34,817 nt of DNA, taken from NCBI RefSeq assembly GCF_001528745.1, contig NZ_BCNS01000131.1, forward strand, positions 1 to 34,817, written 5' to 3'. Positions 3,126 to 3,874 of this stretch are shown here, one piece after another (within the stretch, counting starts at the first letter, position 1; each line of letters opens with the position of its first letter). The translations under genes were made by a program, and so were the position numbers. The notes beneath the pieces were generated by a model that was not told the DNA's origin, did not search any database, and worked only from the letters and a program-made list of their open reading frames with translations. The DNA is from Marinobacterium profundum. GTDB taxonomy: Bacteria; Pseudomonadota; Gammaproteobacteria; Pseudomonadales; Balneatricaceae.

Positions 3126-3472
3126 CGCCGTTGGGAGTGCCGCAGCCGAGTCGGTTTTAAATTTATTTTGATCTGGGCGTTATCTGTGAGCGATGTGGTC
3201 TATTGCTTTAGGGTAGCGCTTTTTCTTTGACAGCATTTTCTAAAACGCCAATAAACATAGTGTAATCCCCAGATAATCAAGATCTCTTTCGTTAATAAAA
3301 TCGATTCAGACTCTGCATAAATAAGCCTGCTTGTTCAGAGTGTAGTTGGCTGCAAGCCGCTTTATTTAAGCCTTCTCGCTCCCGCTTTCTGATTCTAATC
3401 AGCATGCCGTCCATTTATTCAGTTACCTCCAACACTGGTCCTGCTTGAGCGCGGATCTTGGCGATACGGTAC
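3126..3472. other. AT-rich gene-free stretch
   Basis: The first half of a 749-bp gap between the esterase and the MarR gene. It is AT-rich, has many stops in all frames and no recognisable gene or RNA. Together with the hairpin chain at 3473-3650 and 3651-3874 (also gene-free), it is the longest non-coding stretch in the window. Confidence 0.5.
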
Positions 3473-3650
3473 TATTAACCCGGTGGACAAATAGGTTCCC
3501 TCCCTATTTGTCCGTCACGCCAGAAAAACTAGCGCAAGTGCATGGACTTGCTGGTTTTTCTGGCGTTCGCATTGGCCTGCGGCCAATGATGAAGCATCCC
3601 TGCTTCATGTATTAACCCGCCGGGTTAATATCAACCTGGCGGGTTAATAT
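3473..3650. repeat. chain of five or more consecutive perfect hairpins bounded by ATTAACCC/GGGTTAAT arms
   Basis: Nearly every base here lies in an inverted repeat. H1: 3485-3495 with 3503-3513 (11 bp perfect, 7-nt loop). H2: 3517-3529 with 3554-3566 (13 bp perfect), extended inward by 3535-3539 with 3546-3550 around a 2-nt bulge. H3: 3570-3577 with 3581-3588 (8 bp, 3-nt loop). H4: 3589-3596 with 3601-3608 (8 bp, 4-nt loop). H5: 3611-3619 with 3621-3629, or alternatively 3611-3621 with 3638-3648 (11 bp). The left edge 3473-3482 (ATTAACCCGG) is perfectly complementary to 3620-3629, so it could close H1-H4 into one multibranched fold. The pairing is seen directly. Function is unknown: structured RNA, recombination site or mobile repeat are all possible. 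Confidence 0.75.
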
Positions 3651-3874
3651 ATAAGCCGTAAAATATTCATTACCTCAAATACAGCTACTGCACGTGCTTG
3701 CGCTGGGCGCTGGCTTCGGAACCCAGCCGATACAGCCTCAAAGCCCCGTGGCTCAGGTATAAGCCTGGCTGGTGCTTATGTCTTATAACTGTGCGTATGG
3801 CTTGATAGATAGTTGACTGCGCAAGTAAATTGGTTGATAGTTGCTAGCTCAAGCATTCAGCAAGCAGGTGTGTC

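Follow-up and report, generated by a model that had tools for sequence, protein, structure and literature searches.

How should a dense chain of hairpins in a gene-free part of a bacterial contig be understood: as a structured RNA, as an origin, or as a piece of mobile DNA? The question is raised by positions 3473-3650 of the window, that is, the whole stretch of 34,817 nucleotides from Marinobacterium profundum that was analysed. The initial annotation of these positions described five or more perfect hairpins in an AT-rich stretch, and listed a structured non-coding RNA (ncRNA) with switchable folds, a single-strand recombination substrate, a fold-back mobile element and an origin-like site as explanations. 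That the array belongs to a MITE with IS630-type ends is well supported, because its copies are dispersed, the empty sites fit TA duplication, and its ends are common to intact IS630-family elements. The new part is the conserved array, which is absent from the insertion sequence.

The chain lies where it had been described, and five stems, S1 to S5, could be located in it. The element has the formula TA-TTAACCYGGYGG...CCGCCGGGTTAA-TA, and its terminal inverted repeats, TTAACCCGGTGG and TTAACCCGGCGG, are 12 bp long and identical at 11 of 12 positions. The features of this region are as follows.

3473-3630, plus strand: whole element copy of 158 bp, counting the TA at either end; the insertion proper is 3475-3628 (154 bp)
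3473-3474: left TA, judged from relatives to be a target duplication
3475-3486, plus strand: left terminal inverted repeat TTAACCCGGTGG; the comparison with the IS630-family end gives 22/23 over 3473-3495
3482-3516, plus strand: hairpin S1, arms 3482-3495/3503-3516; 11 bp perfect, 14 with wobbles
3517-3566, plus strand: hairpin S2, arms 3517-3533/3550-3566, 17 bp, 94%
3517-3529/3554-3566 and 3534-3539/3546-3551, plus strand: trunk and apical stem of S2, respectively
3570-3588, plus strand: hairpin S3, CATTGGCC-tgc-GGCCAATG, arms 3570-3577/3581-3588
3589-3608, plus strand: hairpin S4, ATGAAGCA-tccc-TGCTTCAT, arms 3589-3596/3601-3608
3609-3630, plus strand: the other IS630-family end, 20/22 match
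3610-3630, plus strand: hairpin S5, the palindromic right end TATTAACCCGCCGGGTTAATA, arms 3610-3619/3621-3630
3617-3628, minus strand: right terminal inverted repeat TTAACCCGGCGG
3629-3630: right TA
3631-3649: probably what is left of a second copy, with left end TCAACCTGG joined to right end CGGGTTAA, then TA

Folded as RNA, 3440-3680 reaches -114.3 kcal/mol where shuffles average -64.5 (z -10.96), and folding as DNA gives a z of -10.29; in neither case was any of 200 shuffles as good. The rival and closing pairings that had been predicted are present as complementarities between 3473-3482 and 3640-3649 and, at 81%, between 3473-3493 and 3610-3630. The 158-nt element folded by itself is closed via both ends, and a further palindrome lies around 3629-3649. 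The window copy overlaps no open reading frame (ORF) of at least 90 aa, in agreement with its description as gene-free, whereas "AT-rich" applies only mildly: the element has 50% GC, and 1-kb windows range from 47 to 66%. The extent first given, 3473-3650, also has to be divided, with 3473-3630 as the recurring unit and 3631-3649 outside it, as what is probably a second copy reduced to its fused ends. This 17-bp palindromic remnant abuts the window copy, and one TA is common to both.

How widely is the unit distributed? Counting the window copy, it occurs in its own genome (5.64 Mb in 226 contigs) in at least 40 places with E 1.3e-21 or better, a minimum because scores were obtained for 40 of the 102 candidates. 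Several copies are cut by contig ends. Six of the copies are identical over 158 bp and have unrelated flanks. Repeated copies had been named beforehand as the mark of a mobile repeat, and their presence by the tens at unrelated places speaks against a unique ncRNA or an origin-like site, which were both rejected. The transferred island that had been suggested for this region is not required for the repeat's presence.

The repeat was found in all six other genus genomes searched, with at least 14-28 matches each, while three other genera of the family have one to two matches among those listed. Among the fetched loci, profile matches mark 118 distinct places, of which 83 are full-length; 63 of these are short (150-165 bp), and in 19 longer ones, of at least 170 bp, the same S2 tip stands on a trunk that is different and more extended. 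A pattern scan of named genomes gave 27 stretches in Marinobacterium rhizophilum, M. sedimentorum, M. nitratireducens and one MAG called Oceanospirillaceae. With a covariance model (R1), the array was detected in 19 of 116 genomes across the family (4 of 16 genera) and in 20 of the 390 genomes drawn across the order (13 of 143 genera). Eighteen of these 20 genomes belong to eight other families.

Judged by their flanking ORFs the copies are intergenic, and short ORFs overlap some of them; according to a crude ORF call for the 32 copies that have neighbours on both sides, the flanking ORFs are convergent for 10, in the same direction for 19 and divergent for 3. Carriage by plasmids or phages was not seen by blastn among 72,556 plasmid and 50,697 phage records, and the first of two patterns run on viral contigs found nothing. 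The sole viral-contig stretch given by the second pattern (L324) was not counted, because it scores just 22.6 bits with the model and the reverse strand of the window copy, taken as a control, scores 25.5 bits; low scores in palindromic DNA therefore mean little. The weakest matches outside the family (8 of 45, with 53 to 61 bits) are less certain than the others. No description of the repeat was found in the literature covered, which was judged by titles and abstract openings and had most subscription journals outside it.

What do the corresponding sites look like when they are empty? At L065, a copy in genome G001 for which G000 (the genome of the window) and G003 are empty, the filled site reads GGTTAC-TA-[TTGACC...GGGTTAC]-TA-ATTCC and the empty site GGTTAC-TA-AACAC. 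At L014, a copy in G000, CT-TA-TTTAACTG...GGGCTAA-TA-CCGCC is found against T-TA-ACGCC in G001 and G003. At a third locus (L025, also in G000), the empty site in G001 and G003 consists of GGC followed by TATCAG; beyond a plain TA duplication, the filled site contains one additional TA, and GGC is missing nearby. The empty sites fit TA duplication, exactly at two loci and near-exactly at L025. At two other loci the entire intergenic region of the relatives differs and the sites are too rearranged to read; no relative spans the site at the window's own locus, and one further locus had no match at all.

In the 82 full copies with both flanks, TA is present on the left in 68, on the right in 76 and on both sides in 64, and outside the family it is present on both sides in 18 of 45 copies; these counts take the element's own consensus as its end and are therefore weaker evidence for the target than the empty sites. 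In 80 of the 82 full copies, C or T precedes the left end. Several insertions touch stop codons. In L065, around 1510, the TA of a TAA stop was hit, and the TATTGA end of the element gives a new stop one codon later.

Which transposase might be responsible for moving the element? Matches to PF13358 (DDE_3) occur in five of the seven genus genomes, and complete IS630-family elements of about 1.1 kb have TATTAACCCGGCGG at each end (L164 in the own genome; L163, L168 and L171 in G001; L165 in G003; a second subgroup in G001). Their reading frames of 350 and 348 codons are free of stops, and the proteins score 226 and 237 bits against NCBIfam NF033545 transpos_IS630 (cut-off 100) and also match Pfam DDE_3; the 350-aa frame and the 226 bits are those of L164, which has TATTAACCCGGCGG ends. 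The first 23 bases of the repeat agree with one end of the insertion sequence at 22 positions, and its last 22 with the other end at 20. By contrast, the repeat interior has no match to the insertion sequence at E below 0.1. The right end is a perfect palindrome in the genus and its counterpart in the insertion sequence is imperfect. In family genomes without a model hit (G013, G056, G060, G080 and G097), related transposases also have TATTAACC-like ends.

It is most likely that an IS630-type transposase mobilises the element. No IS630 relative was found by either search in the copy-rich genus genomes G004 and G006, nor at E 1e-60 in G077, so that a partner transposase was not seen wherever copies are many. 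At E 1e-60 or better, a relative occurs in 5 of the 19 element-bearing genomes of the family versus 10 of the 97 without the element. The partner may have been lost from the copy-rich genomes that have no relative. Its absence there therefore weakens the IS630 link, and the evidence from TA and the terminal inverted repeats is left as strong as before.

REP repeats, which are tagged by GTAG, suggest another route, in which a RAYT (Y1 transposase) would mobilise the array as a REP/BIME-type repeat. Both the ends and the TA agree with IS630 and not with a GTAG-tagged REP. Y1_Tnp matches are found in the three genomes searched (9, 4 and 4), and in G000 an element copy at a contig end has one pair of broken Y1 pieces no more than about 70 bp away. 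Yet no other of the 17 loci scanned, two of which are the same copy, has the hairpin chain; the same repeats were not found flanking a RAYT gene at the scanned loci, and four loci inspected closely have different repeats of their own. Mobilisation by RAYT is thus disfavoured by the ends, by TA and by the RAYT loci that lack the chain, and is highly improbable. The broken pieces (L115/L119, G000 C211:118556-118914) are parts of a Y1 transposase gene with stops. In L122, L111 and L120, RAYT-like genes are flanked by their own other repeats, for example GGTTGGGTGCAGGCCCGAAGGGCC in L122.

Is the fold itself conserved? A 58-pair structure was followed in three sets of copies: A1, with 63 short-form copies (56 distinct), all from the genus but for one from genus g13; A4, with 25 copies from nine genomes in three other genera of the family; and A3, with 45 copies (44 distinct) from 18 genomes outside the family. 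In A1, 92.8% of cells are paired and 27 of the 58 pairs change on both sides, compared with 13.0 in shuffles and 9 to 13 in slides, where the pairing partners are shifted. In A4 and A3, whose alignments were fitted to the model and are hence biased towards structure, the pairs that change on both sides number 34 (shuffles 16.6; slides 7 to 13) and 55 (shuffles 35.8; slides 25 to 35), and A3 has 486 double-change cells versus 124 in shuffles, with 90.8% of cells still paired. Because of this fitting, a structure-blind MAFFT alignment was made of the copy L001, all 25 copies of A4 and 19 hand-picked copies of the 45 in A3. In this alignment 44 of the 58 pairs change on both sides (slides 18 to 31), in 383 cells versus 118 in shuffles (slides 35 to 102), and 89.3% of cells are paired. 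For each of the four alignments, none of 500 shuffles reached the observed value. Compensatory changes in homologues, which had been proposed as a check on the array, are therefore found in the genus, the family, the order and the structure-blind alignment.

Folded singly against 30 shuffles each, 54 of 56 copies in A1, 25 of 25 in A4 and 39 of 44 in A3 have a z below -3, and the median is about -7 in all three sets. S5 is absent or different in several distant copies; the deep core of the array is S1 to S4. The order and number of hairpins persist in the A3 and MAFFT alignments. The unpaired letters best kept outside the family are CTGGCG and the tip of S2, in the upper part of this hairpin, and TCC in the loop of S4. 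The fold itself probably does something, since relatives across the order keep its shape despite many changed letters. Template switching, and not selection, could be part of the reason that the hairpin arms are kept alike.

In what form might such a fold act? The MITE may by chance carry a plus-strand structured ncRNA, whose fold would work as RNA and whose S2 tip would be a putative protein or RNA binding site. The deep covariation in the genus, the family, outside the family and in the structure-blind set would be expected of such an RNA, as would the fold z values and the unpaired S2 letters kept across the order. If the plus strand acted as RNA, G.T cells should exceed A.C cells. When pairs with G.T at 30% or more are left out, however, the G.T and A.C cells number 52 and 94 in A1, 29 and 53 in A4, and 65 and 70 in A3; over all pairs they number 99 and 94, 50 and 53, and 81 and 71, and the p-values for these counts are a guide only, as the copies are related. 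There is no sign in them of selection for plus-strand RNA. A minus-strand RNA fits the A.C excess of A1 and A4, yet the plus-strand fold is the more stable in 42 of the 56 genus copies (among distant copies, the minus-strand fold is so in 27 of 44). Moreover, the S4 loop is inverted in 2 of 56 copies of A1, 1 of 25 in A4 and 0 of 44 in A3, which is an event at the DNA level, and no Rfam family matches the element: the window (1-34817) had 0 matches at gathering, the best of 7 weak matches was at E 0.18, and 12 other loci gave just one S15 leader, outside the element. An ncRNA of this kind is thus rather doubtful; of the RNA first envisaged, the structured nucleic acid holds and the preference for plus-strand RNA does not appear.

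The same loop inversions, which occur between perfect arms, raise the question of whether the palindromes are passive, with template switching or hairpin correction in replication keeping the stems complementary and the fold not being selected. The perfect palindrome at the right end in the genus, against the imperfect one of the insertion sequence, would have a similar origin, as would the identical change in both S5 arms of the L065 copy. Passive palindromes do not account for the retention of unpaired letters in S2 and in the S4 loop across families or for the constant order and number of the hairpins, and they are improbable. GGA is present in some hairpin loops, on different strands in different hairpins; GGA in loops is a feature of CsrA/RsmA sites.

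The element is, very probably, a MITE with IS630-type ends that is moved by an IS630-type transposase and whose folded interior is probably selected. The transposase would excise the element and reinsert it at TA dinucleotides that have C or T before them. The interior of four to five hairpins is no part of the insertion sequence and, being absent from it, is not needed for the transposase. The folded form may be selected because it favours the persistence or spread of the element, and the acting form would be a folded single strand, either as DNA in replication or transfer or as RNA in the 3' parts of transcripts. Tentatively, the array might also be viewed as a structured nucleic acid with a function, and not as a side effect of transposition; it would represent a class of folded mobile elements that spans the order, in which the S2 tip binds a host or element factor and the IS630-type ends were borrowed to spread. 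This proposal is possible, though short of probable. As the array is missing from the insertion sequences that have these ends, the transposase does not account for its conservation across families, and some other reason is needed.

Bacterial MITEs have usually been described by sequence and predicted fold. Here, one architecture can be traced in eight families in addition to the window's own, most of its base pairs having changed on both sides, and insertion sequences with the same ends lack it. The old question of whether selection acts on the folds of miniature repeats, and to what end, is thus made directly testable, and the covariance model can be used to search other genomes of the order.

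Which known repeats does the element resemble? Pseudomonas fluorescens belongs to the same order as the window's host. Its R178 and R200 repeats are intergenic and some of the families are MITE-like, but at 101 and 320 bp they are set apart by description (PMC2718517). RUP of Streptococcus pneumoniae, associated with IS630-Spn1, is likewise a short intergenic MITE with TA ends and terminal inverted repeats that resemble a host IS630-family element (PMC2229807, PMC3049150). By its description, RUP differs in having 107 bp and 9-bp inverted repeats, in contrast to the 154 bp plus TA, the hairpin chain and the 12-bp inverted repeats of the window element (PMC2229807). The ERIC or IRU repeats of enterobacteria, of about 127 bp, are also intergenic, strongly folded and bounded by TA, but their inverted repeats are 7 bp and the account drawn on here gives no mobilising insertion sequence, whereas the window element has one in its own genome (PMC2229807). 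Correia or NEMIS elements of Neisseria are TA-flanked MITEs with transcripts that fold and have been proposed as substrates of RNase III; their inverted repeats are 24 bp, and the portion of that source used makes no mention of separate hairpins lined up in a chain with covariation across an order (PMC2229807). BOX of S. pneumoniae is a miniature repeat that is modular, folds strongly and exists in longer and shorter versions; as far as described, its similarity to the ISSpn2 ends is lower, in contrast to the IS630-type ends of the window element (PMC3049150).

Like BOX, the window element has variant forms, some with a longer S2 and some with extra hairpins between S1 and S2. The extra hairpins (GTACAGGAAGTAC, CGCATGGATGCG and others) are seen in L053 (1660-1990), L076 (1240-1620), L072 and L073. 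In L078, from genome G002, two elements at 1510-1709 and 1708-1880 stand head to tail and the TA at their junction is common to both. A related but distinct repeat, with hairpins like S1 and S3 and a different middle, is present at 1150-1380 of L080 in the same genome.
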